Virus record (IMG/VR): IMGVR_UViG_3300010370_000191
Span: 1-27,298 of that record
Reading direction: 5' to 3' (one strand)
Origin: a virus
Length of the DNA stretch: 27,298 nucleotides
Within the stretch, counting starts at the first letter, position 1. Each line of letters begins with the position of its first letter. Shown one piece after another: positions 850-23,681 of the stretch. The notes below the pieces were generated by a model. That model was given only the letters and a program-made list of their open reading frames with translations. It searched no databases and was not told where the DNA came from. The position numbers were made by a program, and so were the translations under genes.

Positions 850-1030
850 TTCTCAAGTAGAAAGTCTAATGAAACGGATTCAAACTTTGGAAGTGACTTG
901 CCTAAAGCTTGAAGCCGAAAGAGATGCCCACATGGAAGTGATTAAGCAGCTCTTTGGTTATATCCTTAATCCTCCTGATGACTTGTTTCTAGCACAGCTT
1001 AAAGAGCATGAAATTTCATCCGGAAGTTGA
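827..1030 (+). CDS. hypothetical protein, short coiled coil
   Basis: A 67-residue protein whose first 23 bases overlap the end of the small terminase gene and whose last 23 bases overlap the start of the large terminase gene. Tight overlap on both sides supports translation by coupling. The middle (VESLMKRIQTLEVTCLKLEA and onward) has heptad-like spacing and probably forms a coiled coil. I do not recognise the family. It could be a packaging accessory protein, but only the position suggests that. Confidence 0.55.
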   Translation: MTQKVPNDSQVESLMKRIQTLEVTCLKLEAERDAHMEVIKQLFGYILNPPDDLFLAQLKEHEISSGS

Positions 1031-3383
1031 AAGAATTGCTCAAGGTCTTAAAGAGCTCCATGAATGCTGGATTCCGCATGACGGACAAGTTTTAGTCGGT
1101 GCACCTTTAATCTCAGGAGAGGTGAAAGAAGTCTTTGCACAGTGTGGGAGGAATTGGGGTAAGGCTTTAGATATAGAGACTGAAATTCCCACTCCATCTG
1201 GATGGAAAAAGCTGAAAGATGTTTTTCCAGGGGATTTAGTTTTTAATGAGAAGGGCGAGCCAACGCGCGTTATTGGTCAATCACCTATTTATAGAAACCG
1301 TGAATGTTATGAACTGATCTTTGATGATGATTCGAGAATTATAGCCGACGGAAACCATAACTGGATGACACGTTCAAAACAGGAACGGAAAAGAAAAAAA
1401 CCTCCTTCAAAAAAAACGACATTAGAGCTGATTAAACAGATTAAAGTAAGGATTGAATACAACCATCAGATTCAACTTAATCTTTCAGTTCAGTATCCTG
1501 AAAAGAAACTACCTATTGATCCTTATTTGCTTGGAGTTTGGTTAGGTAATGGAAATAGAACTCAAGCTACATTGTGCCAATACGATCAAGAGGTCATTCA
1601 GATTTTAAAAGATCGTGGATTTGAAATTACTAATCACTCTGAGCGAAATAATTACGGAGTTTTAGGCTTATTAGAGATTTTAAGAGAAAATAATCTTTTA
1701 AAAAATAAACATATTCCAAAAGATTACCTAAATGGCTCAGTTGAGCAAAGAATAGACCTTCTTTGTGGACTCATGGATACAGATGGCACGGTGAGTAAAA
1801 CTGGTAACTGTTGCTTTGATAATACGAATGAAAATATCGCCATGGACTTTAAAGAGATTGCAGAGAGTCTTGGATTTAAATGCACAGTTAAAAAACGTGT
1901 AGGGAAGCTTCGAGAGGTTGAGCATAAGCTTTGTTATCGTATTTATTTTAGTCCAAACTTCCAAATCTTTAAACTAAGCAGAAAAGCTAAGATACTTGAG
2001 CCATGGCTTAATAAACATAAAAGAAGGCATAGAACTTTAGTCGGATTTAAGAAGGTTGATTCCAGACCAGTAAAGTGTATTTCAGTAGAGAGTCCATCTC
2101 ACTTATTTTTAGCTGGCCGTCAGTTTCTCGTTACTCATAACTCTGAATTAGTTTCATACCTTCTTTGGAGGTACGCCTATACTTTTCCAGGAAGTGAGAA
2201 CTATTACTTTGCACCTTATATGAAGCAGGCTAGGGAAATCCTTTGGGCTACCAGGAGAATCCAAACGATAGGACCTCAGCATTGGATTGAAAGTGACCCA
2301 AATAATACCGAGATGAGAATCACTTTCACGAACGGCTCATTTATAAAACTAGATGGTTCAGACAATGTGGAAGCGTACCGAGGCGTCAAGCCAAAGGGCT
2401 TAACTGTGTTTGACGAGTTTAAAGACTTTAGGCCTGAGTTTTATGAGGCGTACGATCCAAACAGGGCAGCTTTTGATAGTCCTCTTATGATTATTGGAAC
2501 GCCGCCTGAGTTTGAGTGTCAGTTTACTAAGATTGCAGAGAGCTACAAGAAGGATGACACGAAGCGATTCTTTCACATGCCCACCAGTGCCAATCCTTAT
2601 ATTAGTCAGGACTGGCTAAGAAAAAAGCGAGACGAGCTCTACAATCGAGGAGAAGGCGATAAGTGGGAAAGAGAGTACGAAGCTAAATTCGTTCGAGGCG
2701 GTGCGTCTGCAATCTTTCCAATGCTGTCTAATGAAATGGTATTTCCACATGAGCAACTCATGGGTGAGCTGTGGAGAGATAGAAAGAAGCTAACCTGGAT
2801 TTTGTGGGCCGACCCTGCAGGCGCAAGCTGCTTTGCAGTTCTTTTTTGCGCAATTAACCCCTATTCAAAAGTGATCTATTGCTTAGACGAGATTTACGAG
2901 ACTGAGCAGAGTCAAATGACGGTTGGCAAGATTTGGCCACGGATTAGGGAGAAGAAAGAAGAACTGTCAGACTTTGAGTGGCGACAAGGTTACGACGAAG
3001 CAGCTACTTGGTTTGCTAACGAGGTTCTAGACCTATTCGGAGAAGGATTAGAACCTACTCGCAAGATGAAAAGTGATAAGATGACAGGCCTATCGATGAT
3101 TAAAGACATCATGCTCTCTAAGCGGATTAAGATTTCATCTCGCTGCGTCAAACTATTCTGGGAGTTTGAAAATTATAGAAGAGACTCAAGCGGAAAGATT
3201 CCTAAACTCAATGACCACTTAATCGATAACTTTCGGTATATTTTAGATAGTGAGCACTATTCGATTCTAAATGTGCCAGAACCTAAAGTTGATCCTGCGA
3301 CTACAAAATCAGGTTTTACGCCTGCTGATGACTTTCCTGACTTGTTTAGAAAAGAATCTGATATAGAATGGAGTTATGACTAG
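1008..3383 (+). CDS. terminase large subunit, interrupted by an intein
   Basis: The packaging motor ATPase/nuclease. The 791-residue precursor contains a 326-residue intein (residues 53-378); the spliced protein would be 465 residues. Walker A is GRNWGK (47-52) joined to Ser379. Walker B with the catalytic Glu is LTVFDEF (465-471), and IIGTPP (495-500) fits the ATPase coupling motif. The C-terminal nuclease domain shows WADPAG (Asp602), a central GYDEAA segment and the late DHLIDNFRY motif, the usual acidic positions of the RNase H-like fold. The extein lacks a long N-terminal extension. The start overlaps the previous gene by 23 bases. Without splicing the Walker A loop is split, so intein removal should be required for packaging. 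Confidence 0.93.
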   Translation: MKFHPEVERIAQGLKELHECWIPHDGQVLVGAPLISGEVKEVFAQCGRNWGKALDIETEIPTPSGWKKLKDVFPGDLVFNEKGEPTRVIGQSPIYRNRECYELIFDDDSRIIADGNHNWMTRSKQERKRKKPPSKKTTLELIKQIKVRIEYNHQIQLNLSVQYPEKKLPIDPYLLGVWLGNGNRTQATLCQYDQEVIQILKDRGFEITNHSERNNYGVLGLLEILRENNLLKNKHIPKDYLNGSVEQRIDLLCGLMDTDGTVSKTGNCCFDNTNENIAMDFKEIAESLGFKCTVKKRVGKLREVEHKLCYRIYFSPNFQIFKLSRKAKILEPWLNKHKRRHRTLVGFKKVDSRPVKCISVESPSHLFLAGRQFLVTHNSELVSYLLWRYAYTFPGSENYYFAPYMKQAREILWATRRIQTIGPQHWIESDPNNTEMRITFTNGSFIKLDGSDNVEAYRGVKPKGLTVFDEFKDFRPEFYEAYDPNRAAFDSPLMIIGTPPEFECQFTKIAESYKKDDTKRFFHMPTSANPYISQDWLRKKRDELYNRGEGDKWEREYEAKFVRGGASAIFPMLSNEMVFPHEQLMGELWRDRKKLTWILWADPAGASCFAVLFCAINPYSKVIYCLDEIYETEQSQMTVGKIWPRIREKKEELSDFEWRQGYDEAATWFANEVLDLFGEGLEPTRKMKSDKMTGLSMIKDIMLSKRIKISSRCVKLFWEFENYRRDSSGKIPKLNDHLIDNFRYILDSEHYSILNVPEPKVDPATTKSGFTPADDFPDLFRKESDIEWSYD
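1164..2141 (+). mobile_element. class 3-type intein with LAGLIDADG endonuclease domain
   Basis: In-frame 326-residue insertion exactly between Lys and Ser of the Walker A motif of the large terminase. Block A is ALDIETEIPTPSGW; it begins with Ala, not the usual Cys/Ser. Block B is GNHNW (precursor His117, Trp119). Block F is KCISVESPSHLF (Cys357). Block G is FLVTHN with +1 Ser (Thr376, His377, Asn378). Ala1 together with Trp, Cys and Thr at the block B, F and G positions matches the W-C-T signature of class 3 inteins, which splice through a branched intermediate on the block F Cys. Two dodecapeptides are present: LLGVWLGNG (174-182) and LLCGLMDTDG (251-260). The first has Asn where the catalytic Asp is expected. 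Confidence 0.92.
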
Positions 3384-3582: not shown

Positions 3583-5801
3583 GCTACTTTTTTGATGGAG
3601 CATTAGACACTTTAGACAAAAGTTTTTCCCAACCAAAGTATCCTCTATATAGCTTAGACCTTGACGATCCTAGAAACGATCAGGACGTACTTCGATGGCT
3701 TTCCTCTGAGCTAGGATTCTTAGAGCAAGAAAATGAACCACGCATTCGAGTGATGAGAAGAAACCTTGCTCTCTATAAAGGCATTCAATACCAGGAATTA
3801 GAAACTAGGCTTGATGCAAGGGACAGAGGCACAGATAGGGCTCAAGTTGTAAGAAAGATTGTCTGTAACCACTTATATGATCTAGCCAAAAATAGGGCTT
3901 CACGTCTGATTAAATTTAAGCCTGCTGTGGCGATCCTTCCAACCAATGATGAGTTAGGCGATAAGGTCGCAGCGAAGGTAACTAAGCAATTACTTGACCA
4001 TATCTGGTATGAATCAGACTTTGAGGGAAAGATTCAAACTCAACTTGTGACTAATGCTCTTGTGATGGGTGAGAGTTATCTTTTCATTCTTTGGGATGAG
4101 GACTCAGGGGATTTGAATCCTGCTTGGGTTAAGGCATCCAAAGAGCATGGCGGGAAAGTCCCTTTGCTTGATTCAAGTGGTAATCCTACAAAAGACCCGC
4201 AAGGAAACATCGTCTATATTGATAGACCAGTAAGAACTGGTGATGTTGATTACCGAGTCTGGCTTGCATCTGAAGTTCTAATGCAAAAGAAAAAGAACTT
4301 CGTGGATGTAGACTACTGCTTTACTCGTGAGCTCGTTAATACTCAGGAGTTAAGACAACTTTACCCAGATAGTGCGTCCAAGATTAAAGATTTGGATGAC
4401 GCACAAGTTTATGACTACGAGAAAATGGAAATGCGGCCTGCAAGGGGTGAACAGGTAGTTTATACCTTCTGGCACAGACGGTCGAGAATGATGGACAAAG
4501 GCCGAAAGATTGTCTTTTTGAAAGATGTCATCTTGGAGAATACTGAGATTCCATTCTCACATGACAAACTTCCATTCATTCGTTTCACAGACATTGAGTA
4601 CCCAGGCGAACTTTACGGAGTTTCTTTCTTTGAGAATATTAAGCAGCTTACTGGCACATATAACAATATTACTAACATGCTAGTTAGAAACATTGTGCTT
4701 GCTTCGCATCCTAAGTGGATGGTTCCTGCAGGATCAGTAGCATTAGACAGGCTTGGAAATGACATGACCATTGTCCAATACAAAGGCCCAGTCGCTCCTG
4801 TGCTTGCAACAGCTCCCACAGTTCCAGCTGATGTTTTTGGGTTTAGAGAAAAGATTAAGGAAGAATTTCAGCAGATTTCAGGAGTGTTTGGAGTAAGCCG
4901 AGGTGAGCCACCTCCTGGTATTAAAGCAGGTGTAGCCCTTCAGTTCTTAAGCGAGCAGGAATCTGAGCGGTACAATGAATTAGTTCTGAAATATAACGAC
5001 ATGATTTTAAACATCGCTAAAATGACGCTTGCAGTCTGTGGCGACTACTATGACGAATCAGACGAGCGTATGATTCGAGTCATTGGAAAAAACAACCAGT
5101 GGATGACTAAGTTTTTTAATGTGGCCTATTTGGAGAAAGACTATGACATTCGTGTTCAGAATTCTTCGGCCTTGCCGAGGTCTATTGCGGCTCGTACTCA
5201 GACTCTGCTAGATTTGAATGAGCGATTTCCTGACCAGTTTACATCCGAGCAAGTTATTGACCTGTTAGATTTAGGTCAGTCTGATAAGTTCATTGACGCT
5301 GCAACCGTTGCAGTAAGAACCGCTCAGGCGGAGAACGAAGAACTATTGAAAGAAGGTAAAGATGCCCTTTCAGAGGAATCCCTTGCTCCTAAGGAGTTTG
5401 AAAACCATTTGCTCCATTGGAGAGAACATACTCGATTGGTTCAGGAGTATGCTTTCAAATACCAGACGCCTGAAGCTGTTCAAAAAAGAGTAATGAATCA
5501 CATCATGGCCCATGAAATGCTCATGATGGATCTTGCAGCGAAGAATCCTTTATTTGCTCAAGAGATTTCAAAGTTATCTCTTTTCCCGATGTTTTTTAAT
5601 CAAGTACCACAAGTTGAATCTGTAAAAGAGGAAGGTGCACCTGTTCCTGGAATGCCTAATATTCCAGTAGGTGAGATGCCTGGATTACCTGTGAATCCTG
5701 CATTAGGCGGAGAGCCACAAGTACCAGTAAATCCAAATATGCCAAATATAGAGGAGCAATTAGGCCTATCAGGGCCAGTTGAACCTAGTTCATCCGTATA
5801 A
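3579..5801 (+). CDS. portal protein
   Basis: The 740-residue protein fits the portal of short-tailed phages: the dodecameric ring at the capsid vertex through which DNA is packaged. Reasons are size, position right after the terminase, and the sequence run. An N-terminal region has RRNLALYKGIQYQ; the conserved portal core follows (NHLYDLAKNRASRLIKFKP near residue 97, ALVMGESYLFILWDEDSGD near 161, ITNMLVRNIV near 364). A segment at about 437-460 reads FGVSRGEPPPGIKAGVALQF. The last 70 residues are Pro/Gly/Val-rich and low-complexity, outside the fold. The start overlaps the previous stop (ATGA) and has a GAGGCGG site just upstream. Confidence 0.88.
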   Translation: MSYFFDGALDTLDKSFSQPKYPLYSLDLDDPRNDQDVLRWLSSELGFLEQENEPRIRVMRRNLALYKGIQYQELETRLDARDRGTDRAQVVRKIVCNHLYDLAKNRASRLIKFKPAVAILPTNDELGDKVAAKVTKQLLDHIWYESDFEGKIQTQLVTNALVMGESYLFILWDEDSGDLNPAWVKASKEHGGKVPLLDSSGNPTKDPQGNIVYIDRPVRTGDVDYRVWLASEVLMQKKKNFVDVDYCFTRELVNTQELRQLYPDSASKIKDLDDAQVYDYEKMEMRPARGEQVVYTFWHRRSRMMDKGRKIVFLKDVILENTEIPFSHDKLPFIRFTDIEYPGELYGVSFFENIKQLTGTYNNITNMLVRNIVLASHPKWMVPAGSVALDRLGNDMTIVQYKGPVAPVLATAPTVPADVFGFREKIKEEFQQISGVFGVSRGEPPPGIKAGVALQFLSEQESERYNELVLKYNDMILNIAKMTLAVCGDYYDESDERMIRVIGKNNQWMTKFFNVAYLEKDYDIRVQNSSALPRSIAARTQTLLDLNERFPDQFTSEQVIDLLDLGQSDKFIDAATVAVRTAQAENEELLKEGKDALSEESLAPKEFENHLLHWREHTRLVQEYAFKYQTPEAVQKRVMNHIMAHEMLMMDLAAKNPLFAQEISKLSLFPMFFNQVPQVESVKEEGAPVPGMPNIPVGEMPGLPVNPALGGEPQVPVNPNMPNIEEQLGLSGPVEPSSSV

Positions 5802-5818
5802 TTAAATAAGGAGTTTAA

Positions 5819-7033
5819 ATGAGTGAAAGCGCAACGCAGACTACACCGAATGTGAATGTAGAAACTGCAAGTGTTCAGGAGCCCATTGAAGTGGTAGGCG
5901 GTAGTTCTCCAGTATCCTGGGACGAACTAGGAGCTGTAAGCCAATGGCGTAAAAACCTATCTGATGAGCCTGAAGTCAAGACTGCTCAAAGGCGAGCAGA
6001 AGAAGGCGATGATTTAGATGAGGTACTTAATAAGAAAGGAGAAAAGAAAGATGCCAAAGAAAAAAGCAGCGAAGAAAAAAGTAGCAAAGAAAAAAGTAAC
6101 AAAGAAAAAGATGAAGTAAAAAGTTCTAAAGAGACCAAAGCGGTTAAGGAAGCTTTGAAGGCCTTAAAATTAAAACAAGGCGACCAAGAAGTAGAGGTCT
6201 CTCCAAATTCCTTAGTTACCGTCAAGGTAGACGGAAAATCAGTTGAGGTTCCAGTTCAAGAAGTAATTAATCGTTACTCTCAACAGCGACACCTCGATGA
6301 CCTTTTCCGTAAACATAAGGCAGAGCGTCAAGAGTTCGAAGCAAGCCGTCAAAAGATTTCAGAATTAGTTCAAAAATCGCATGACCTATTAGCTCAGAAA
6401 AAAGACCTAAAAGGGTTTATTGAAATGATGAGCGAGAGTATGGGCGTGGACGGTCAAAAACTCTATCAGGACGCTGTAGAACAGATTAGACAAGTAGTCG
6501 AAGAAGAGAGTACGTTAAGCCCTGAGGAGAGAAGGCTTAAGCATTTAGAAGCTGAAAATCAGTACTATCGAACGAAAGCAGAGGCCGCAAAAGCTGCGCA
6601 AGCAGAAACGGCTAAGCTTAAACAGATCGAGTCACAGGTTGAAAGTGTTCTAACTTCAAAGGGAATGCAAAAGTCTGACTTCGTGCAAGCGTATGACACT
6701 TTAGTTAAGAATGGGTTCAAAGCTGAGGAAATCACACCTGAACAGGTGGGCTCCTATTGGGATAATCTTAAGCTAGTTGAAACGATTGAATCGAAACTAG
6801 TTCAAGCCAATCCTGAGTTAGCTGGAAACTATGAGGAAGTGGAAAAGCTTGCAAACCTTGCGATGCAAACCGAGGCTTCAGCTGAGGAAATCGAAGAGGT
6901 TATAAATCAACTCTACGCCAATGATTCGGCAAAGAAGTTGAGTAAAAAGATTTCAAAAACAATTAAAAAGTCTCAAATGGAAAATGGGCCAAAGCGTTCG
7001 GGCTCTGATCCACTTTTCTTTGATGACATTTAG
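5819..7033 (+). CDS. scaffolding protein (putative)
   Basis: A 404-residue, highly charged protein between portal and major capsid protein, the standard place for the scaffold that directs procapsid assembly and then leaves. Residues about 60-110 are almost only Lys, Glu, Ser and Asp. A short beta-like unit follows (VTVKVDGKSVEVPVQEVINR), of a type common in phage scaffolds. The rest is long predicted helix (about 160-270, Glu/Lys/Ala/Gln-rich). An AAGGAG ribosome binding site lies 7 bases before the ATG. No protease motif is visible, so it is probably a separate scaffold and not a protease fusion. Confidence 0.75.
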   Translation: MSESATQTTPNVNVETASVQEPIEVVGGSSPVSWDELGAVSQWRKNLSDEPEVKTAQRRAEEGDDLDEVLNKKGEKKDAKEKSSEEKSSKEKSNKEKDEVKSSKETKAVKEALKALKLKQGDQEVEVSPNSLVTVKVDGKSVEVPVQEVINRYSQQRHLDDLFRKHKAERQEFEASRQKISELVQKSHDLLAQKKDLKGFIEMMSESMGVDGQKLYQDAVEQIRQVVEEESTLSPEERRLKHLEAENQYYRTKAEAAKAAQAETAKLKQIESQVESVLTSKGMQKSDFVQAYDTLVKNGFKAEEITPEQVGSYWDNLKLVETIESKLVQANPELAGNYEEVEKLANLAMQTEASAEEIEEVINQLYANDSAKKLSKKISKTIKKSQMENGPKRSGSDPLFFDDI

Positions 7034-7047
7034 AAAGGTAAATAAAA

Positions 7048-8497
7048 ATGGCACAGTTTAGTTTAAGCACAGCCTCTAATCTTTTTAAGATTAAATACGG
7101 TAAATAACTTGCCGCTCTAATGAGTAATCATTAGATGATAACTTCCGAAAATCGGTGAACCCTGAGATGGGAATACCGAGGTTGAATTTTAGGATTGAAT
7201 CAACCGTAACGCATAGAGTCTGGATGAAAAGACTCCACGAGTCGGAAGCAACCTGAAAAGGTTGAATATGTATGCTGAACTTATCGGAATTAAACGATAA
7301 GAAGTTTAGGGTAAAAAACCTAAGCGATAACAGCTGAAGTTAGCAGATAACACGTACAATAGTGCAAATGTTTTATTAGGCCGTTGCAAGAAGGAATATA
7401 ACTTCGTCGGTAAGAGAATGGACATCGCAATTCCAACCTCTTTCGCAGGCGGTGTGGGTTCCGGTTCATTGCCAATTGCAAACTACGCAAACGTGCAAGA
7501 TGCAGTGATCGAAGCTAAGAAAATGTATGCTGTAGGCTCTATTGATCGTGAAGCGATTAAAGCTGCTTCTGTCTCAGAAGGTGCATTCATCGAGCTCACG
7601 AAATTCTCAACCCAGAAGGCAGTTGAGTCTTGGATGAGAAACATGAGCCGTGCCCTTTTCAACGATGGCTCTGGCTCTTTAGGTGTGACCACTGCAGCTG
7701 TTGCAGGTGGTTCTGCTGCAGCTCCGACTGTGGTTATCTCTTCGACAACCTGGAAAGAAGCTAACTTCGAAGAAAAAGACTACATCATGATCGACAGTGT
7801 TGCGAATCCCTACAGCACATCTGCTATTTGGGAAATCACCGCTGTTGCTCCTGCTACTCGTACTCTTACTTTAGCTCGTATTGCAGGTACTGTGGATTTG
7901 ACGGCCGATGCCGGTGCAAAAACCCTCTACATGCAATATTCTAAAGATGCAGACCCAAGCGGTTTGAAAGGTGTTTTAGATGCAACCTCAGGCACTCAGT
8001 ATTCCATTACTGTGGGCCGTCGGTGGCAAGCTTCGGCTCAGATTGCAGCGAGCGGTGCAGGTATTACAGCTGACCTCCTCAACCAAGGAATGATGGAAGT
8101 GCAACGCAAATGCGGCAAGGTGCCAAATTTGATCATCACTTCTTTCACTCAGTACCGTAAACTTTTGAACATCTTGGAAGACCAAAAGCAGTACTTGCTC
8201 GATCCAAGGGCTCAAGACTTGATCGGTAAAATCAGCTTCCGTGGTTTGGAATTCATGTCCGCTGCAGGACCTGTGGGTATTTTCCCTGAGCGTTTCTGCG
8301 AAGACGATAGGGTTTACTTACTCAATGACAACTTCCTGACCCTCCATCACAGACCTGATTTTGGTTTCTTTGATGATGACGGAACTGTCCTTTTGCGTGA
8401 TGCATCTTCCGACTCTTACAGCTTCCGCTTTGGCGGATACCTGCAAGCCTACATCGTGCCTCCATTCCATGGAGTCATCAGCGGACTTGCAGTCTAA
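7048..8497 (+). CDS. major capsid protein, split by a group I intron (join 7048-7101, 7337-8497)
   Basis: The spliced reading frame gives 404 residues, beginning MAQFSLSTASNLFKIKYG (exon 1, 18 codons) and continuing KLADNTYNSANVLLGRCKKE (exon 2). The join restores a continuous capsid N-terminus. The long open frame visible in genomic DNA starts at the internal ATG 7418, which has no ribosome binding site. Exon 1 has a GAAAGG site before its ATG, directly after the scaffold gene. The protein has the features of a phage coat protein: Ala/Gly/Ser-rich, a long helix near residues 75-125, and beta-rich C-terminal parts. Unspliced mRNA ends at a TAA (7105-7107), yielding only a 19-residue peptide. 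A strong terminator follows the stop. Confidence 0.88.
7102..7336 (+). ncRNA. self-splicing group I intron (IA-like, ORF-less, 235 nt)
   Basis: Every core helix can be drawn. P1: exon CGGU (7098-7101) with GCCG (7111-7114), U.G pair at the splice site. P2: 7117-7123/7128-7134 with a GUAA loop. P3: CUUCCGA 7142-7148/UCGGAAG 7242-7248. P4: UCGGU 7152-7156/7175-7179. P5: CCC 7160-7162/GGG 7169-7171. P6: GGUUGA 7180-7185/7200-7205. P7: GCAUA 7211-7215/UAUGC 7271-7275. P7.1: GAGUC 7216-7220/7231-7235. P8: CAACC 7249-7253/7260-7264. P9: 7280-7286/7295-7301. P9.1: 7304-7310/7319-7325. P10: AACUU 7106-7110 pairs with the 3' exon AAGUU 7337-7341. The 5' exon ends in U and the intron ends in G. P7.1 suggests subgroup IA. 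No endonuclease gene is inside. Confidence 0.94.
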
Positions 8498-8512
8498 TCA
8501 ACTGAACCGATT

Positions 8513-8543
8513 GGCTAGGGGGGAAACTCCCTAGCCTATTTTT
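8513..8543 (+). terminator. rho-independent terminator after the capsid gene
   Basis: GGCTAGGG (8513-8520) and CCCTAGCC (8529-8536) form an 8-bp GC-rich stem with an 8-nt loop, followed by TATTTTT. It lies 15 bases after the major capsid stop and before the next gene. It may limit read-through from the highly expressed capsid gene into the fiber genes. Confidence 0.85.
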
Positions 8544-8560
8544 CCACGGAGAAAAAAATC

Positions 8561-8890
8561 ATGCTACGTGAAATTAAATCCCCTCAAAGACTTCCAAGAC
8601 AACTTCACTTCAAAATTGACGGTGTTTCGACTTCAAGCCTTTTGGTCGGCCAATACGATGGCGTCCTGACTGTAAATGGTACTGGAGACTACACTGTGAC
8701 TTTCAATAAGCCATTTGCTCGTGTGCCTGTAGTTTCGGCCACGGTCGGTGGAGCTGCAATTGGAGTTGCTTTGGTTTCTTCTGCTACGGCTTCCGCTGTG
8801 ACAGTTAAGACTTATGACTTAGCTGCCGCAGCTTTGGACGCTGAACTGCATCTTATGGTCCAAGGCTTTGACGCTTTAGATCAATACTAA
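8561..8890 (+). CDS. small virion protein, beta-rich (putative)
   Basis: A 109-residue protein after the capsid terminator. The sequence is rich in Val, Thr, Ala and Gly with alternating strands (TVNGTGDYTVTFNKPFARVP, then VSATVGGAAIGVALV), typical of small beta-sandwich virion proteins such as capsid decorations or fiber modules. No catalytic motif is seen. A CACGGAG ribosome binding site precedes the ATG. Its place next to the capsid gene favours a head protein, but this is inference only. Confidence 0.6.
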   Translation: MLREIKSPQRLPRQLHFKIDGVSTSSLLVGQYDGVLTVNGTGDYTVTFNKPFARVPVVSATVGGAAIGVALVSSATASAVTVKTYDLAAAALDAELHLMVQGFDALDQY

Positions 8891-8899
8891 TTAATAAAG

Positions 8900-8977
8900 T
8901 GCGCTGTAGCTCAGAGGTAGAGCTGAGTTACTCCTGACGAGGAGAACTAGGGCGAGGGTTCGAATCCCTCCAGCGCA
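8900..8977 (+). tRNA. tRNA-like element with over-long anticodon arm
   Basis: A 7-bp acceptor stem UGCGCUG (8900-8906)/CAGCGCA (8971-8977), U8-A9, D stem GCUC/GAGC (8909-8912/8920-8923) with loop AGAGGUA, and T arm GAGGG-UUCGAAU-CCCUC (8954-8970) are all canonical. The anticodon arm is not. AGUU/AACU plus CUCCU/AGGAG stack into a 9-bp stem with one bulged A and a GACG loop (8926-8948), so no 7-nt anticodon loop can be drawn. CCA is not encoded; a run of eight T follows. It could be a degenerate tRNA (a Val GAC anticodon would be the nearest reading) or a non-decoding tRNA mimic. Confidence 0.6.
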
Positions 8978-8996
8978 TTTTTTTTGAAAGGTTCTT

Positions 8997-9335
8997 ATGG
9001 CTTCAGTCAATAGGTTACAGCTTTCGAGCGGTGCGATTAGTGGAGACACGAATGGGACTGCTTATACCTTAGAAGGATTGCAATTAGACTTTGCAGGCCT
9101 TTTAAAAATTAGTGCATTAGGTGCCGGAACCAGTTTGGTTGTAAAGATTCAAACTAGTCCAGACAACTCAAATTGGATTGATTGGATCACCTTTACCACT
9201 GCAACTGCTACAGGCGGAGAAGTAGTCCGTGCAACCACTTTCGGTATGACTTATGTGAGAGCTAAATTTGATTTTACAGGCGGAACTGAAACTTGCACCG
9301 CTACTGTCGATTTATTTTATGATAAGCGCAGATAG
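8997..9335 (+). CDS. small virion protein, beta-sandwich type (putative)
   Basis: A 112-residue protein with alternating strands. The segment VVKIQTSPDNSNWIDW (about residues 47-62) is typical of small phage structural modules that measure or bind along a beta-sandwich. GTETCTATVDLFYD near the end reads as the last strand. A GAAAGG site lies before the ATG, just after the tRNA-like element. It is probably a virion surface or fiber-associated protein; the exact role cannot be read. Confidence 0.6.
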   Translation: MASVNRLQLSSGAISGDTNGTAYTLEGLQLDFAGLLKISALGAGTSLVVKIQTSPDNSNWIDWITFTTATATGGEVVRATTFGMTYVRAKFDFTGGTETCTATVDLFYDKRR

Positions 9336-9352
9336 TTTGATTTTTTTTAAAA

Positions 9353-9358
9353 TATAAT
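9353..9358 (+). promoter_or_regulatory. candidate promoter -10 box
   Basis: A perfect TATAAT lies in an AT-rich tract (T8AAAA) between the 112-residue virion gene and the long fiber gene, 88 bases before the latter's ATG. There is no convincing -35 at 17 bases (CAGATA), so the call is weak. It would restart transcription of the fiber genes after the tRNA-like element and its T run. Confidence 0.3.
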
Positions 9359-9445
9359 TCATAACTTCATTCTAGGTAAACGTGCTAGCCAAGGATGGCA
9401 CTCCGAATACACAAAGATCCGCAATAATGACGGGGAGGTTTTAAG

Positions 9446-11290
9446 ATGAGTATAAAAGGTTGGCCAACGCAGGAAAAAGACGCAAGGTTAAGTCCACAAT
9501 TCGCAACTGTTGAGCCTGTTAGAACACTTCAGCATTCACTTTCAGTTTTAGCACATCAATTCGTAAGAGAAGTAGGAACCGACACGGTCGAAGCTAGTTC
9601 AACCGTCACGGTAATTAATGCAACATCTCATGCTGCACAAGCAGGTGATGTAATTCGTTTTACTTCCGGAACTTTGAGCGGACAAGAAGTCAAAGTTTAC
9701 GCCGTTTCTACTAATGAAATTACTCTTGCAGAGGAATTACCTTCTGCTCCTGCTTTAGGCGTTGGGTTTCAAATTTTAAGACATAAGTATCCTGTAGTTG
9801 AAACCACAGGCGAAATAAAAGTCACAGGCACTTTTTCCACTACAGAAGCTGCAGTTGCCGCTGATGGTGACCCTCTTCCTGCTCTAACCAAAGTAGTATC
9901 AGGTTATGACGGTGCAGCAGTTCAGGTTTTAAAAACTGATTCAAATGGAGAGTTACAGGTTGATGTGCTCTCAAGTGCTTTGCCTACTGGAGCTGCAACT
10001 AGTGCAAAGCAAGACTCTGAAATCTCTTTATTGACCACGATTGACGCAGATACTTCCACATTATCTGCTTGTGTGAGCTCAAATAAAGTTCAAACAGATG
10101 TAAATTCCATTATTAACACAGTGGATTCGTCAAATAGCACTACGGTAGCACTTGCAGGCGGTGCAAATTTTACAGGTTCATGGGTTGAAAATAAAAACTA
10201 TGGTTCAATCCAAGTAGGAATTAAAGCAGACCAGAATTCTGCGACTGATGGAGTTGAGATTCAATTCTCCAATGATGGCTCTACGGTTCACCATTCACAT
10301 GTTTATACTTATTATACAGCGAGCGGTGGAATAGGTTACCTTTTCCAACCCGAGTTCAAATATTACAGAATTAAATTCACGAATGGAGCTGTAGCTCAAA
10401 CCAGCTTCAGCTTATCAACTACTCCTAGATCAATAGCCTTATTTCCATCTCAATATAGGATAAACACTTCCATTACAAATGAAACCCAGGCTTTGATGAC
10501 ACGAGCAGTTATCACTGGTGAGACAACTAGTGGTGGTGGAGCCTTTGTAAACGTCAAAGTCAATCCATCAGGAGCTCTTACTGTTGACTCAACTCTTTCT
10601 GCAATAGATGCAGCACTAGCTGGGCAAAAAACTATGGCAAACTCTTTGCCTGTAGTAATTGCGTCCAATCAAAGTGCAGTTCCAGCAAGTCAGTCTGGGA
10701 CATGGAATATTAATAATATTAGCGGGACAATTAGCTTACCGACAGGAGCCGCTACTGAATCCACTTTAAGTACTTTAAATGGAAAGGTTACAGCTTGTAA
10801 TACCGGAGCTGTAACGATTTCTTCTTCGGCCCTTCCAACCGGAGCTGCAACAGAAAGTACTTTAAGTACGCTTAATGGAAAAGTAACTGCTTGTAATACT
10901 GGAGCTGTAACGATTTCCTCTGCTTTGCCTTCTGGAACGAATACGATTGGCAAGGTCGATGTAAACACTTTGTCAGTTATTGACCTGTTAGATGCAGGTA
11001 TTTTAGACACTTCAAGCACGAATATTCCTGGAAGTGCATCAAGCCCTGTTCAAGTTGTCGCATCAACTGCAGCGGCTACAAAGAAGCTACAACTTTTAGA
11101 TACGACTGGAGCCTTTGTGGGAATTTACACAGGCGGTTCTGGGTCGGAAGTTTTACAATTCGTCATGGGCCCAGGCTCAGATCAAACTATTGAGCATGCT
11201 ATACCTGCTTCCACAAGAATCAGTTTAAAGCGTCTTGATTCAACCACTGCAGTCTCTACAGGGATTGTAGCGATTAACTTCATCGGATGA
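9446..11290 (+). CDS. fiber / structural protein with tandem repeats
   Basis: A 614-residue Ser/Thr/Ala-rich protein with the look of a phage tail-fiber or head-fiber polypeptide: long beta-rich, low-charge segments and no enzyme motif. Residues about 240-330 form a compact domain (SWVENKNYGSIQVGIKADQN, then VEIQFSNDGSTVHH). The segment ASQSGTWNINNISGTISLPT (from about 413) is a common phage fiber linker, followed by a two-copy 31-32-residue repeat. The C-terminal 90 residues may be the trimer tip. A GGGGAGG site precedes the ATG. It probably works with the next two fiber genes in host recognition. Confidence 0.7.
   Translation: MSIKGWPTQEKDARLSPQFATVEPVRTLQHSLSVLAHQFVREVGTDTVEASSTVTVINATSHAAQAGDVIRFTSGTLSGQEVKVYAVSTNEITLAEELPSAPALGVGFQILRHKYPVVETTGEIKVTGTFSTTEAAVAADGDPLPALTKVVSGYDGAAVQVLKTDSNGELQVDVLSSALPTGAATSAKQDSEISLLTTIDADTSTLSACVSSNKVQTDVNSIINTVDSSNSTTVALAGGANFTGSWVENKNYGSIQVGIKADQNSATDGVEIQFSNDGSTVHHSHVYTYYTASGGIGYLFQPEFKYYRIKFTNGAVAQTSFSLSTTPRSIALFPSQYRINTSITNETQALMTRAVITGETTSGGGAFVNVKVNPSGALTVDSTLSAIDAALAGQKTMANSLPVVIASNQSAVPASQSGTWNINNISGTISLPTGAATESTLSTLNGKVTACNTGAVTISSSALPTGAATESTLSTLNGKVTACNTGAVTISSALPSGTNTIGKVDVNTLSVIDLLDAGILDTSSTNIPGSASSPVQVVASTAAATKKLQLLDTTGAFVGIYTGGSGSEVLQFVMGPGSDQTIEHAIPASTRISLKRLDSTTAVSTGIVAINFIG
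10736..10924 (+). repeat. two-copy coding repeat in the fiber gene
   Basis: Two successive units (10736-10831, 32 codons; 10832-10924, 31 codons) each encode LPTGAATESTLSTLNGKV-TACNTGAVTISS. The amino acids of the shared 30 positions are identical, but many third codon positions differ (for example TTA/CTT, GCC/GCT, GTT/GTA). A partial LPTGAAT copy occurs further upstream near 9978. Confidence 0.85.
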
Positions 11291-11312
11291 TGAACTAGGG
11301 AGACCTACTTAA

Positions 11313-13337
11313 ATGCCAGCGACAATCTTTTCGGGAACTAAAGTTAAGACTCTAAAAAGCACACTAGATTTAAACGGTGGGAACGACATCATTAGTTCGA
11401 CTACCGATCCAACGTCCGTTGCAGTCAGTGCAAATATTGGATCACTCCTTCTTAATAGCTCAAACGGCAAATTATACCGAAAGAATGACTCGGGAAGTTC
11501 GACTAATTGGAGCGAAGTAGGCTCAGGCGGGACCGCTGGGATTAACTATATTACTAACCCTAATGCTGAGACCAATACTACCGGATGGGCCACTTATGCA
11601 GACGCTGCAGGCGCAAGCCCTGTAGACGGAACTGGTGGGAGTCCTAACGTCACTTGGACTCGGTCTACAACTACTCCTTTAAGAGGTTCTGCTGATTTCA
11701 ATTTTGTGAAAGATGCAGCGAATCGCCAAGGAGAGGGTGTTAGTGCTGACTTTACGATTGATAGTGCAGACACGGCAAAGGTTCTTTCGGTTTCCTTTGA
11801 CTATGAAGTTGTCTCAGGAACCTACGCAGACGGTGACTTGACCATTTACATTATTGCAGATCCTTCAGGCACTCCTGTTGTCATTCAACCTGCTGGGTAT
11901 ACGGTCCTATCTGCTACGGCCGGCACGAAAATGAAAGCGACTGCAACTTTTCAAACGCAAGCCACTGGCACGAGCTATAGGCTTTGCCTACATGTAGCTT
12001 CGACGTCGGCAAGTGCTTATACTTTAGCTCTTGATAACGTAGTGTGTGGACCTCAACCTGTTTTAATTGCTCCTGCAATGACAGATTGGAAGACTTATAC
12101 ACCAGCTAATTTAAATTTAGGAACATTAACAAGCGCAACTTTTGTCTATCGTCGAGTCGGAGATTCTGTAGAAGTAGTAGGTCGTTTTACTTCAGGAACT
12201 GTTTCTTCTGGGGACATGGCAATTGGTTTGCCTAGTGGGTTAGTCTCAGCTGGAACCGATAGAATTCCAGCGACAGCAATTTGCGGCAAAGGAAATTACG
12301 GAGTTAATACTACTAACCAAATTGATCCATTAGTTGTAGCAAGTTCAAGTTATATTTATTTCGGTGTTCAAAGCGGTTCAACTAACGGATTAGCAAATTA
12401 TAATGCAGCGAGTTTTGGATCAGGAACGACAATGAGTTTCTTTGCTCGTGTTCCAATTTCAGGTTGGTCCTCAAATGCTATAAGTTCAGCTGATACTGAT
12501 TCACGAATTATCATGGCTCAAGTTAGTTTGGCCAGTAACTATGCGGTTGGTGCCAACGCTGTTGTTAAGTATGATACAATTGTAAAAGACACATCTGCGA
12601 TGTATTCGACATCATCAGGGTTAATGACAATCCCAGTTTCTGGGTTTTATTGTATTACTACATCCAATCAAGAAAACGGTTCCACAGCTCCATTATTATA
12701 TAAAAACGGGTCCCAATTAGTTCGCTTAGCAGATTTAAGTGCTAACGTTTATGGTAGTTCTTCGTATACTGGTTATTTTAACGCTGGAGACACTGTAGGG
12801 TTATATTCTTCAGGTGCCGTTACATTTTTTGGTGGATCTCCATCTCCTTGTAACTTTGCAATCTTCAGACTCTCCGGCCCCGCAGTAGTTCAAGCAACTG
12901 AAACAGTTGCGGCATCGCTTCAACTTAGTACTAGTACGGCTGCGATCGCTAATTCTACGGATACTAAAATTCCGTTTGATGTAAAAATATTTGATACCCA
13001 CAATGCTTTTTCAACTAGCACAAACTCATACACCGTGCCTGTTACAGGTACTTATCATATTCATGGTGCATATCTGTGGAAGGGTACAACGTCAACGGCT
13101 GACTATAGGACTACACTAAATAAAAATAGTTCTCTACTTCGAGCACAATATCAACCAAGTAAATCGGGCACTGCAAACTTAGCACATGGTGTCACATTTG
13201 ATTATCTTGAAAAATTAAATGCCGGCGATGTGATTTATGTTACATGTTATCAATCAACAGGGGGAGCGTTAGCAATTTGGGGTAACGATCTCTTAAACGG
13301 TGTTGGATCTTTAATGATTGAAAGAATAGGTAACTAA
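11313..13337 (+). CDS. tail fiber / receptor-binding protein with C1q-like domains
   Basis: A 674-residue protein. Residues about 20-70 read as a short virion-attachment or trimer region (IGSLLLNSSNGKLYRKNDSG, the common label-style fiber motif). Residues 75-250 resemble a carbohydrate-binding beta-sandwich (NYITNPNAETNTTGWATY start, LALDNVVCG end). Two C-terminal units look like C1q/TNF-type trimer domains: one ending near 530 (IPVSGFYCITTS, FNAGDTVGLYSS), one ending at 674 (VPVTGTYHIHGAYLW, LNAGDVIYVTCYQS). The order attachment, sugar binding, two C1q-like heads suggests a receptor-binding fiber. An AGGGAG site lies upstream. Domain names are from pattern recognition only. Confidence 0.72.
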   Translation: MPATIFSGTKVKTLKSTLDLNGGNDIISSTTDPTSVAVSANIGSLLLNSSNGKLYRKNDSGSSTNWSEVGSGGTAGINYITNPNAETNTTGWATYADAAGASPVDGTGGSPNVTWTRSTTTPLRGSADFNFVKDAANRQGEGVSADFTIDSADTAKVLSVSFDYEVVSGTYADGDLTIYIIADPSGTPVVIQPAGYTVLSATAGTKMKATATFQTQATGTSYRLCLHVASTSASAYTLALDNVVCGPQPVLIAPAMTDWKTYTPANLNLGTLTSATFVYRRVGDSVEVVGRFTSGTVSSGDMAIGLPSGLVSAGTDRIPATAICGKGNYGVNTTNQIDPLVVASSSYIYFGVQSGSTNGLANYNAASFGSGTTMSFFARVPISGWSSNAISSADTDSRIIMAQVSLASNYAVGANAVVKYDTIVKDTSAMYSTSSGLMTIPVSGFYCITTSNQENGSTAPLLYKNGSQLVRLADLSANVYGSSSYTGYFNAGDTVGLYSSGAVTFFGGSPSPCNFAIFRLSGPAVVQATETVAASLQLSTSTAAIANSTDTKIPFDVKIFDTHNAFSTSTNSYTVPVTGTYHIHGAYLWKGTTSTADYRTTLNKNSSLLRAQYQPSKSGTANLAHGVTFDYLEKLNAGDVIYVTCYQSTGGALAIWGNDLLNGVGSLMIERIGN

Positions 13338-15826: not shown

Positions 15827-18334
15827 TTGTCAGTCAATTATCAGTTTGTAAAAAGATATGAAAATCTTTCTGGAGTTGACTACAAGTCTTCTGACCTAAA
15901 ATTCCCTGAGCAATACGCTACCGCACTTAGAAACATTCAATTCACGAATACGGGTTCAATTGAAAAGAGAAAAGGCTTTCAAGGCTCTATTGAATCTAAA
16001 GGTGGCCGAGGGCTTTTCACTTATAAAGTCTACAATCCCTCAACCGGAGCTGAAACCGTAGAATTAATTGCAATTGACAATAACGCCCATAAACTTGTCG
16101 AAGGCACTTTGACTGTAACCTATTCAGGAAGTGCTGCACTTTGTGAAATCTCAATTTTATTTGACGCTACTACCTCAGACTACAGATGTAAAATAGTTGA
16201 AGGGACTTCTGAGGTTTTAAACTTTGATTTAGGCATTGGGTTTGATGAGACTAGCCCTGTAACCGTGTCTCAGTTATGCACTGCAATTGGAGCCTTAACA
16301 GGTTTTACAGCGGTTGCCACCGTGGGCACAATGCCAGCTGCTTTTTTAGATACAATCATCTCTCACAATTTAATCTCAAGTGCTTTAACTCTTAATACTC
16401 GTTATTGGTCTCAGATTAATGCCCCTCAGGACCCATTTCCTGGCAACTCTACTTATTCAAATGACGCAAACTTTGAAAATACAAGTGCTGTCCAATTATA
16501 TAACATCCTTTACCTGTCCAATGGGTATGACGCAGTTAAGAAGTATGATGGACAGAACATTTACAACGCAGGGGTTCCCTCTTGTGATGGAGTTTCTCTC
16601 GCAAATAGCACAGTAGCGGGTGTTTTAGGAAATGATGACTATAGTTACAAGGTAACCATCCTTCAAAAAGATAACCAGGGCAACGAGAATGAAGGAAACC
16701 CAATTACCTCTGCAATAGTAGACTACAACGGTAACCAAATTGACGTGACTGTAAACAACGTGCTTGCAGCGAGTGGTTACAATACTGGATGCGCTGTAGT
16801 AAATGGCACGCAAGCCGGAGTCACCACAATAACAGTTGATGATGGGACCAGTGGAGCTCATACGCTTAAAATTGGAGACACTGCTTATTTTTACGACGGT
16901 GTGTCTAGTTCTTATGTCGAGCGTCAAATCACGAATATAAGCGCAACAAGTATTACTATTGCGGGAGCTGCAGTCAACGTAACGGATAATGATGTCATTT
17001 CAAATAACTTAAGAATTGTGATTTATAGATCTAAAAATACAAGCGGAACACCAACCGTCTGGTATTCCCTAGTTGAGCTCCCAAATAATTCATTTACGGC
17101 AACCCAGACATACCGAGATAATATTGCAGACTCAGCTTTAGGAGCTATTTACATTCCTCCGGCTACTGATAGGAGCCCTCCACAAAAGGGCCGATACATT
17201 TCAACGTTTCAAGGGTTACTTGCTACAGCTGGGAACCTTTCTGAAGTAAACACAGTAAGTTTTTCTGATATAGAATCACCTGAGTATTTCCCGATCCCTG
17301 ATAACCAAATTATAGTAAATGATCTTATCGGGGATAGAATTACTGGTATTTCCCCTTCCAATGAGTTTTTCATTATTTTTCAGTCACAAAGTATTCATGT
17401 CTTATCGGGGGATTTCCAGGGACAAAGTTTTAAGGTTGACCAAGTAGCCAACGACATTGGGTGTGCAGCTCATGCTTCAATTCAAGATGTAAGAGGCGCA
17501 CTGATGTTTATGAGCCTTCAAGGGCCAAGGCTCCTTCAAGGTGGACAAGTCCCAAGAGGATTGGGTCAATATGAACAGAATCCTTTTGTAAGCAGGATTG
17601 ATCCTATCTTTGACCAGCTAGGTGAATCAGATCCAACTAAGGTTTTTAAATTAAAAAGATCTGTTAGTTTCCATGACAGAGTTCATCAGAAGTATTGGGT
17701 GTTTGTGCCTTGTGAAACAACTACTTCTGGTAAAGTATCTGCAAATTCTAATTCAGTGACTTTTGTTTATGACTACCCAAGGGACGCTTGGTTAGAGTGG
17801 GATTCAATGAATCTCGCTGGAGGTGTGGCACTCTATCAGAATGAAACCTATATTAATGAGCGTAGCTATTCAACTTTTGCTAGTGCTCTTCGTTATGTTG
17901 TTTTTAAAATTCATTCAACTGATACACAGTACGACTATGCCGACAATGCGAATGCTATATCTTGTTATTGGAAGTCTGCCTGGGACTTTTTGGGAGAAGC
18001 TTCGATTTTAAAAAGCTTTCTCGCAGTGAATGTTTTTTCGACAGGTCTTGTAGAGAATGAATTTACATTAACTTTTAGAACTGAAGTTAATTGGCTTACT
18101 GAGATTAAATCAGAAGTTTCAATTGAAATTGGATCAGGAGGTTATGGGGTAAGTCCATATGGAACAGATCAATATGGAAATCCATCTGAGCCTGCATATT
18201 CTAGGAAATTAAATAATAATAGAGTGAAATCAATTCGAGCAGTTTTAGTTAATAATGAAATGCAGAAGAATATTAACGTAACTGGTTATGAGTTTGAAAT
18301 TGCAGCTCCTTACAAGCCAAGGTTTGTCAAATGA
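15827..18334 (+). CDS. tail hub / DNA stabilisation protein (P22 gp10-like)
   Basis: An 835-residue protein in the class of P22 gp10 and T7 gp12 (tail nozzle, closes the portal after packaging). The start region LSGVDYKSSDLKFPEQYATA followed by LRNIQFTNTGSIEKRKGFQ is the family N-terminus. The core segment GRYISTFQGLLATAGN, then FSDIESPEYFP, and SNEFFIIFQSQSIHVLSGDF (about residues 465-525) is the beta-propeller part, followed by CAAHASIQDVRGALMFMSLQ. The start is TTG with GAGGTGAG seven bases before; no in-frame ATG lies nearby. It forms the tail with the adaptor upstream. Confidence 0.8.
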   Translation: MSVNYQFVKRYENLSGVDYKSSDLKFPEQYATALRNIQFTNTGSIEKRKGFQGSIESKGGRGLFTYKVYNPSTGAETVELIAIDNNAHKLVEGTLTVTYSGSAALCEISILFDATTSDYRCKIVEGTSEVLNFDLGIGFDETSPVTVSQLCTAIGALTGFTAVATVGTMPAAFLDTIISHNLISSALTLNTRYWSQINAPQDPFPGNSTYSNDANFENTSAVQLYNILYLSNGYDAVKKYDGQNIYNAGVPSCDGVSLANSTVAGVLGNDDYSYKVTILQKDNQGNENEGNPITSAIVDYNGNQIDVTVNNVLAASGYNTGCAVVNGTQAGVTTITVDDGTSGAHTLKIGDTAYFYDGVSSSYVERQITNISATSITIAGAAVNVTDNDVISNNLRIVIYRSKNTSGTPTVWYSLVELPNNSFTATQTYRDNIADSALGAIYIPPATDRSPPQKGRYISTFQGLLATAGNLSEVNTVSFSDIESPEYFPIPDNQIIVNDLIGDRITGISPSNEFFIIFQSQSIHVLSGDFQGQSFKVDQVANDIGCAAHASIQDVRGALMFMSLQGPRLLQGGQVPRGLGQYEQNPFVSRIDPIFDQLGESDPTKVFKLKRSVSFHDRVHQKYWVFVPCETTTSGKVSANSNSVTFVYDYPRDAWLEWDSMNLAGGVALYQNETYINERSYSTFASALRYVVFKIHSTDTQYDYADNANAISCYWKSAWDFLGEASILKSFLAVNVFSTGLVENEFTLTFRTEVNWLTEIKSEVSIEIGSGGYGVSPYGTDQYGNPSEPAYSRKLNNNRVKSIRAVLVNNEMQKNINVTGYEFEIAAPYKPRFVK

Positions 18335-23181: not shown

Positions 23182-23386
23182 AGCTTGTCAAATGTATTGT
23201 CTCAGCTGCGCTAAGATTGCGTCGGCTCACAGTTCAGGGAAGTGTCAGGCTTGCAGGAAGGCTCCTTGCTTTTATTGCGGAGAAAAGTTTCTAAACAAAG
23301 TTGAGCCTCCGGTATGTGCGGCCTGTCGCAGATTGACGATGATACAGCGTGAAAAGCTTCGTCAACTGATTTTACGCACGCACTGA
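23162..23386 (+). CDS. CxxC zinc-ribbon-like protein
   Basis: A 74-residue protein from ATG 23162 with four CxxC pairs: CLSC (13-16), CQAC (28-31), CFYC (36-39) and CAAC (52-55), enough for two zinc sites. The rest is basic (RREKLRQL-type end), so nucleic-acid binding is possible. A TTG at 23129 or ATG 23192 are other starts; 23192 would still keep all four pairs. The start overlaps the previous gene by 20 bases. The last 176 bases lie antisense to the VRR-NUC nuclease gene. The clear cysteine pattern is the reason to accept it. Confidence 0.6.
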
Positions 23387-23681
23387 TGGCACCGAGTGCT
23401 TTCATTTCATCTAAGAAAGCTTTTTGGTGGGGTGATAATTTTCCGGTTTTACTTTTGACCTCAAGGCAAATCATTCGTCCTTTATAAATACCTAAGATGT
23501 CTGAGACCCCATTGATCTGATACTTCGATGGCCTTCTGAATATTTTCTTCTTAGGATCAAATATACCGACGCTTTGGTTTTTCCAGACCTTGCAACCAGG
23601 AAGAAGTGAAAGGGCATGGAGAATTGCATTCTCGATGTTTTTTTCTGAAACTTTAAATATAGGCTTCTTTTTTTTAATCAC
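23211..23681 (-). CDS. VRR-NUC family nuclease
   Basis: A 156-residue protein from GTG 23681, read leftward. The nuclease core is a PD-(D/E)xK type: Glu17 in SEKNIENAILHAL, Asp61 in NGVSDILGIYKG, and Glu74-Val-Lys76 in MICLEVKSKTGKLSPHQKAF. VRR-NUC proteins of phages act on structured or free-end DNA, for example in recombination, and this fits ERF and SSB on the same strand. Residues past about 113 ([20 protein letters not shown] and on) extend past the usual end of the fold and lie antisense to the zinc protein gene. No ribosome binding site is obvious; AGTCGG is weak. Confidence 0.82.
   Translation of the reverse strand: MIKKKKPIFKVSEKNIENAILHALSLLPGCKVWKNQSVGIFDPKKKIFRRPSKYQINGVSDILGIYKGRMICLEVKSKTGKLSPHQKAFLDEMKALGAISACVKSVDEAFHAVSSSICDRPHIPEAQLCLETFLRNKSKEPSCKPDTSLNCEPTQS

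Follow-up and report, generated by a model that had tools for sequence, protein, structure and literature searches.

The major capsid gene of this phage is interrupted by a stretch of 235 nt, which is almost certainly a group I intron with catalytic activity, probably of the IA type frequent in phages. Its patchy distribution, discordant with that of the host gene, points to occasional transfer. We give this reading as a whole a probability of about 96%. The window, which is the whole stretch of viral DNA analyzed, has 27,298 nt. Judged from its sequence, the region 7102-7336 constitutes an entire group I intron without an ORF, resembling the IA type and with a P7.1 helix, whose splicing is predicted. 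Through this predicted spliced reading, the start of the capsid gene is corrected to ATG-7048. The correction applies to a phage group without any relative in the phage-record collection we have searched: a tblastn search with the capsid protein found no match there.

Capsid gene and intron structure

The elements of the split gene and of the intron are the following:

7048-7101 (+): exon 1 of the major capsid gene, 18 codons (MAQFSLSTASNLFKIKYG), final U at the 5' splice site; homologous N-termini of intronless relatives
7102-7336 (+): predicted group I intron, 235 nt, ORF-less, terminal (omega) G at 7336; fold, guide pairing, covariation and covariance model
7105-7107 (+): in-frame stop, second intron codon (TAA); TGA, TAG and TAG in three relatives
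7106-7114 (+): internal guide, which pairs with both exons (P1 and P10)
7111-7114 with 7098-7101 (+): P1, GCCG with CGGU of exon 1, U.G at the splice site; invariant in four copies
7106-7110 with 7337-7341 (+): P10, AACUU with AAGUU of exon 2; one double change across relatives
7116-7135 (+): P2 hairpin, 8 bp (7116-7123/7128-7135); 5 pairs with compensatory changes
7142-7148 and 7242-7248 (+): P3, 5' and 3' strands; compensatory changes in 4/7 pairs
7152-7179 (+): P4 (7152-7156/7175-7179), around P5 (7160-7162/7169-7171); MFE and covariation
7180-7205 (+): P6 (7180-7185/7200-7205); compensatory changes in 3 pairs
7211-7215 and 7271-7275 (+): P7, 5' strand GCAUA and 3' strand UAUGC, expected G-binding helix; invariant in four copies
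7216-7235 (+): P7.1 hairpin (7216-7220/7231-7235); compensatory changes in 4/5 pairs
7249-7264 (+): P8 (7249-7253/7260-7264); compensatory changes in 2 pairs
7280-7301 (+): P9 (7280-7286/7295-7301); compensatory changes in 4/7 pairs
7306-7323 (+): P9.1 (7306-7310/7319-7323); compensatory changes in 3/5 pairs
7337-8497 (+): exon 2 of the major capsid gene, 386 codons plus stop; Pfam SU10_MCP, PHROG major head protein

Exon 1 ends in UACGGU, and the insert lies between codons 18 and 19. Exon 2 starts with AAGUUAGC. Joining both exons gives an open reading frame of 18 + 386 = 404 amino acids, as claimed in the initial annotation, whereas the frame which starts at ATG-7418 codes for only 359, so that the first 45 residues would be lost in automatic annotation. 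The shorter frame matches SU10_MCP and major-head PHROGs, beginning at an internal position of the profiles only: its residue 16 aligns with position 67 of phrog_14242, which is what a protein without its N-terminus should show.

The minimum free energy (MFE) structure of the intron RNA has -79.9 kcal/mol (z = -7.46), a value not equaled by any of 200 shuffled sequences. It includes P1, P2, P3, P4, P5, P6, P7.1, P8, P9 and P9.1. P7 alone of the expected helices lies outside it; this is the pseudoknot partner, which completes the P3/P7 pseudoknot. The guide 5'-AACUUGCCG-3' forms 9 bp with the joined exons CGGU|AAGUU, with a U.G pair at the 5' splice site. When the first 60 bases of the intron are shuffled, a 9/9 pairing appears in just 0.9% of cases. 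The terminal U7101 of exon 1 pairs with G7111 in P1. As for the extra helices of the IA type, between the 5' strand of P7 and the 3' strand of P3, P7.1 is present and covaries; P7.2 was not seen.

Four different copies of the intron, of 231-243 nt, are found at the same site: that of the window and those of three other phages (L006, L020 and L031). All four present the group I core helices P3-P8 and the P3/P7 pseudoknot, keep the terminal U of exon 1 and the terminal G of the intron, and have a guide which pairs 9/9 with both exons. Both the group I identity and the fixing of the splice sites by P1 and P10, proposed when the sequence was first annotated, are borne out. An alignment of these four sequences covers twelve named helices with 65 pairs, or 260 base-pair cells. 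Standard pairs occupy 98.1% of the cells, compared with 81.4% in shuffled alignments, and slid controls do not exceed 43%. In this count, the structure is favored over its slid versions by having been drawn from the window sequence. Changes on both sides are found in 29 of the 65 pairs (16.2±2.2 in shuffles, at most 5 in slid controls); among the other three copies, such double changes are less subject to this bias. For covariation, the score is 0.590, compared with 0.225 for shuffled and at most 0.151 for slid alignments. Compensatory changes are seen in P2, P3, P4, P5, P6, P7.1, P8, P9, P9.1 and P10. P1 and P7 do not vary among the four copies, so that covariation in P7 is silent either way. 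The double change in P10 is a case in point: the A7107-U7340 pair of the window is G-C in the other three copies, so that the guide has kept pace with a silent change of the capsid exon.

The stop which ends the exon 1 frame occupies the second intron codon in all four copies, with different triplets. An in-frame stop after the upstream exon is a possible means to keep ribosomes off a folding intron (review, PMC3984707). The stops in the four copies fit such a role, a suggestive agreement only.

Splicing would proceed as follows. Ribosomes starting at ATG-7048 reach the stop near the beginning of the intron, as can be read in the sequence. The intron would fold in the transcript, as covariation indicates. 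According to the conserved mechanism, P1 would present U7101, where a guanosine bound in P7 would cut; P10 would align exon 2, with G7336 marking the 3' site. Ligation of the exons should then give the mRNA for the 404-residue capsid protein.

Distribution and history

A scan of IMG/VR yielded 53 homologues of the capsid protein. An alignment-based scan gave 80, in contigs largely shared with the first scan, and three more in genome contigs. In this second set, the frame is continuous across the junction in 78 of the 82 loci which contain the gene start (L229 was counted by eye). The junction KIKYG-KLADN is encoded exactly by intronless relatives, the closest with 94% amino acid identity: in L002, ...NLFKIKYGKLADNTYNSANVLLGR... 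is continuous, and the protein is 94% identical over the 359-amino acid part. Removal of the intron restores the host frame, and the intronless homologues are contiguous over the junction. A capsid start at ATG-7418 is rejected, since these homologues carry the segment encoded by exon 1 uninterrupted; the comparison with intronless proteins suggested in the initial annotation contradicts homologues starting at the equivalent of that codon. The homologues in genome contigs are found in three distant MAG contigs, with 43-51% identity, and the intron is absent from them.

An insert at the identical base is found in four of the 82 loci: L001, L006 (243 nt), L020 (234 nt) and L031 (231 nt). L001 is the same phage as the window, a separate 8010-bp contig 99.95% identical over positions 4626-12635. 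A DNA pattern search specific for this site did not find any other locus with the insert. Assembly artefact as the origin of the insert is rejected in view of the separate contig and of the three additional phages which carry it.

L035 also carries an intron of this RNA family (174.9 bits), near the C-terminus of the same capsid gene. It has 267 nt and follows U884; its excision restores the conserved HRPDFGFFDDDG / HRPDFGFFDDDGTV, as in relatives. Its guide CGGAAGGUCCAA pairs 12/12 with UUGGAU|UUUUCG, which is matched by 0.5% of shuffles, the intron boundaries having been picked by eye to restore the protein. L035 lends separate support to the guide rule. It shares with the window intron the RNA family and the capsid gene family, and differs in length, in its C-terminal site and in its P1 (GUCCAA) and P10 guides.

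Other genes are also split. In a sample of relatives, the spliced flanks identify the terminase large subunit as host gene in L126 and L068, and an unrelated major head protein in L111 and, weakly, in L077. The L111 intron (5763-6020) interrupts a phrog_422 gene, and its exon 1 ends in UACGGU too. L077 contains two closely related introns (532-784 and 824-1081), separated by an exon of about 60 bp, in a probable head-protein gene.

There is no homing endonuclease ORF within 7102-7336, as initially noted, nor any open frame of more than 78 residues from stop to stop. The HNH, HNH_3, GIY-YIG and LAGLIDADG_3 profiles have no match in the contig fragments of L006, L020, L031 and L035. In L068, a LAGLIDADG endonuclease ORF, confirmed by profile, adjoins the intron core on its 5' side, so that parts of this intron lineage do carry endonucleases. 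LAGLIDADG-like ORFs appear to adjoin the core on the same side in L115 and L109; profile confirmation refers to L068 only.

The intron and the capsid gene do not tell the same history. The intron tree separates the window and L020 from L006, L031 and L035 (support 99/98), while the capsid tree places the window with L006 and L002, and L031 with L032. Forcing the window and L006 together on the intron is rejected by the AU test (p=0.004), as are the intron groupings forced on the capsid (p=3e-5 or lower), in a test based on five short sequences, with non-independent paired sites and a clade selected once the pairwise identities were known. This conflict suggests exchange between phage lineages. 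Strictly vertical inheritance of a group I intron, with repeated loss and no such exchange, would affect only the mobility part of our reading. The identical site in all four copies is what it predicts, but the conflict between the trees and the lack of the intron in most relatives go against it, and we consider it unlikely.

Under our preferred reading, occasional transfer among related phages would take place by recombination or with an endonuclease acting in trans, as the distribution indicates. The routes might include homing of the collaborative kind, which uses a free-standing endonuclease, and reverse splicing (both discussed in PMC3984707), as well as ordinary recombination between co-infecting phages; we rank recombination or trans homing first. 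A more ambitious proposal is that of an endonuclease-free intron lineage which has entered phage capsid genes again and again, its insertion being directed by the guide, either by reverse splicing or aided in trans, with P1 and P10 re-aimed at each new site. It is drawn from the two sites in this capsid gene family and from the unrelated capsid gene of L111, with its UACGGU exon end, and appears improbable. In any case, since the distribution is patchy and discordant and no endonuclease is encoded, the way in which such introns spread is directly testable.

The sole LAGLIDADG_3 match in the window corresponds to an intein in the terminase large subunit (1008-3383). It comprises about residues 54-378, with a LAGLIDADG domain, and is placed at the Walker A motif, with borders GRNWGK|ALDIETEIPT...VTHN|SELVSYL; its first residue is seemingly Ala, not Cys. 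Twelve relatives have the same terminase without these residues. The packaging and capsid genes of a single phage are thus split by protein-splicing and RNA-splicing elements, respectively. Just past the capsid gene and the ORF which follows it lies a tRNA-Val (anticodon GAC, 8899-8979); the capsid gene of L035 likewise has a tRNA (1675-1754) on its downstream side. Positions 23211-23681, on the minus strand, give a weak VRR-NUC nuclease match (E 3e-4), under the Pfam cut-off.

Detection by covariance models

The Rfam model RF00028 does not match the window, either at its gathering threshold or at E<=5. The initial annotation had named the lack of such a match as an argument against an intron. 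Nevertheless, at E<=1 the same model finds nothing in the contigs of L006, L020, L031, L035, L077 and L068, and only one gathering-level intron match among 20 loci. RF00028 misses nearly all close relatives, so its silence on the window is uninformative, and we have rejected it as an arbiter of intron identity.

We have built another model, R1, solely from the four capsid intron copies. It detects the tail intron of mycobacteriophage BAKA: the match ends at 28460 which, minus the 10 nt of exon in the model, agrees with the published 3' end at 28450, whereas the position of the 5' end is inexact. R1 also matches within 16607-17553 of Twort, at one place in T4, and at 8863-9083 of LittleE, in the capsid-gene region (E 9e-6). 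At several places in these four records, RF00028 scores overlap R1 matches. Splicing of the BAKA and LittleE introns has been shown by RT-PCR (PMC3706429). A core pattern found 85 stretches in IMG/VR, and R1 matched 79 of the 79 which were scanned; selected with an intron-derived pattern, they are uninformative on overall frequency. Searched by BLASTN against phages and plasmids, the intron had partial matches only. RF00028 is therefore blind to a clade of compact phage introns which a simple four-copy model recovers, as judged from the 79 pattern-selected stretches. Given this blind spot, the annotation of capsid and terminase genes in viral metagenomes is probably often truncated.

The RF00028 result might also indicate a decayed copy which does not splice, with ATG-7418 as the only start of the capsid protein, or with a sister phage without the intron as its source. 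This is very improbable: compensatory change keeps the pairing in every variable core helix, both the terminal G and the stop close to the 5' end are conserved, and 78 intronless relatives have the N-terminal segment. Finally, ribosomes might bypass the 235 nt of an unspliced RNA as in T4 gene 60, since the insert is structured and its beginning has an in-frame stop, shortly after a codon for Gly, but the T4 bypass covers about 50 nt, the insert has the full set of group I core helices as well as the terminal G, P10 and the U.G of P1, most helices covary, and the same RNA model detects introns proven by RT-PCR, so that we give this explanation practically no credit. A spliced group I intron is the reading we retain.

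Comparison with known systems

Mycobacteriophage LittleE likewise has a group I intron in its major capsid gene, spliced out in late expression; it differs in its size (about 820 nt), its LAGLIDADG-like ORF, and its unrelated capsid gene and site (PMC3706429). The BAKA minor-tail intron, the best proven match of R1, resembles that of the window in being compact (265 nt), endonuclease-free and located in a structural gene. On the other hand, its host is a tail gene, with another guide and other exons (PMC3706429). In Staphylococcus phage Twort and Escherichia phage T4, R1 matches overlap RF00028 matches, and the best introns are well above the RF00028 cut-off, unlike the clade of the window. 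In uncultured Jug phages, group I introns of small size (average about 206 nt) are abundant and terL is often split (PMC12363816); splicing of these introns has been seen in metatranscriptomes (PMC12363816). Jug phages are nevertheless huge gut phages, their introns were found with subtype models, and their likeness to the window is one of description (PMC12363816).

The opinion in the initial annotation that capsid genes seldom contain such introns holds only in part, considering the proven case of LittleE (PMC3706429) and the related intron in at least one unrelated capsid gene, that of L111. In summary, group I introns were already known in a capsid gene (LittleE, PMC3706429), in a small form without an internal endonuclease gene (BAKA, PMC3706429) and in uncultured phages (PMC12363816). 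Our results add a further, well-supported case, and with it the exact correction of the gene, the Rfam blind spot, a second site and a discordant history.
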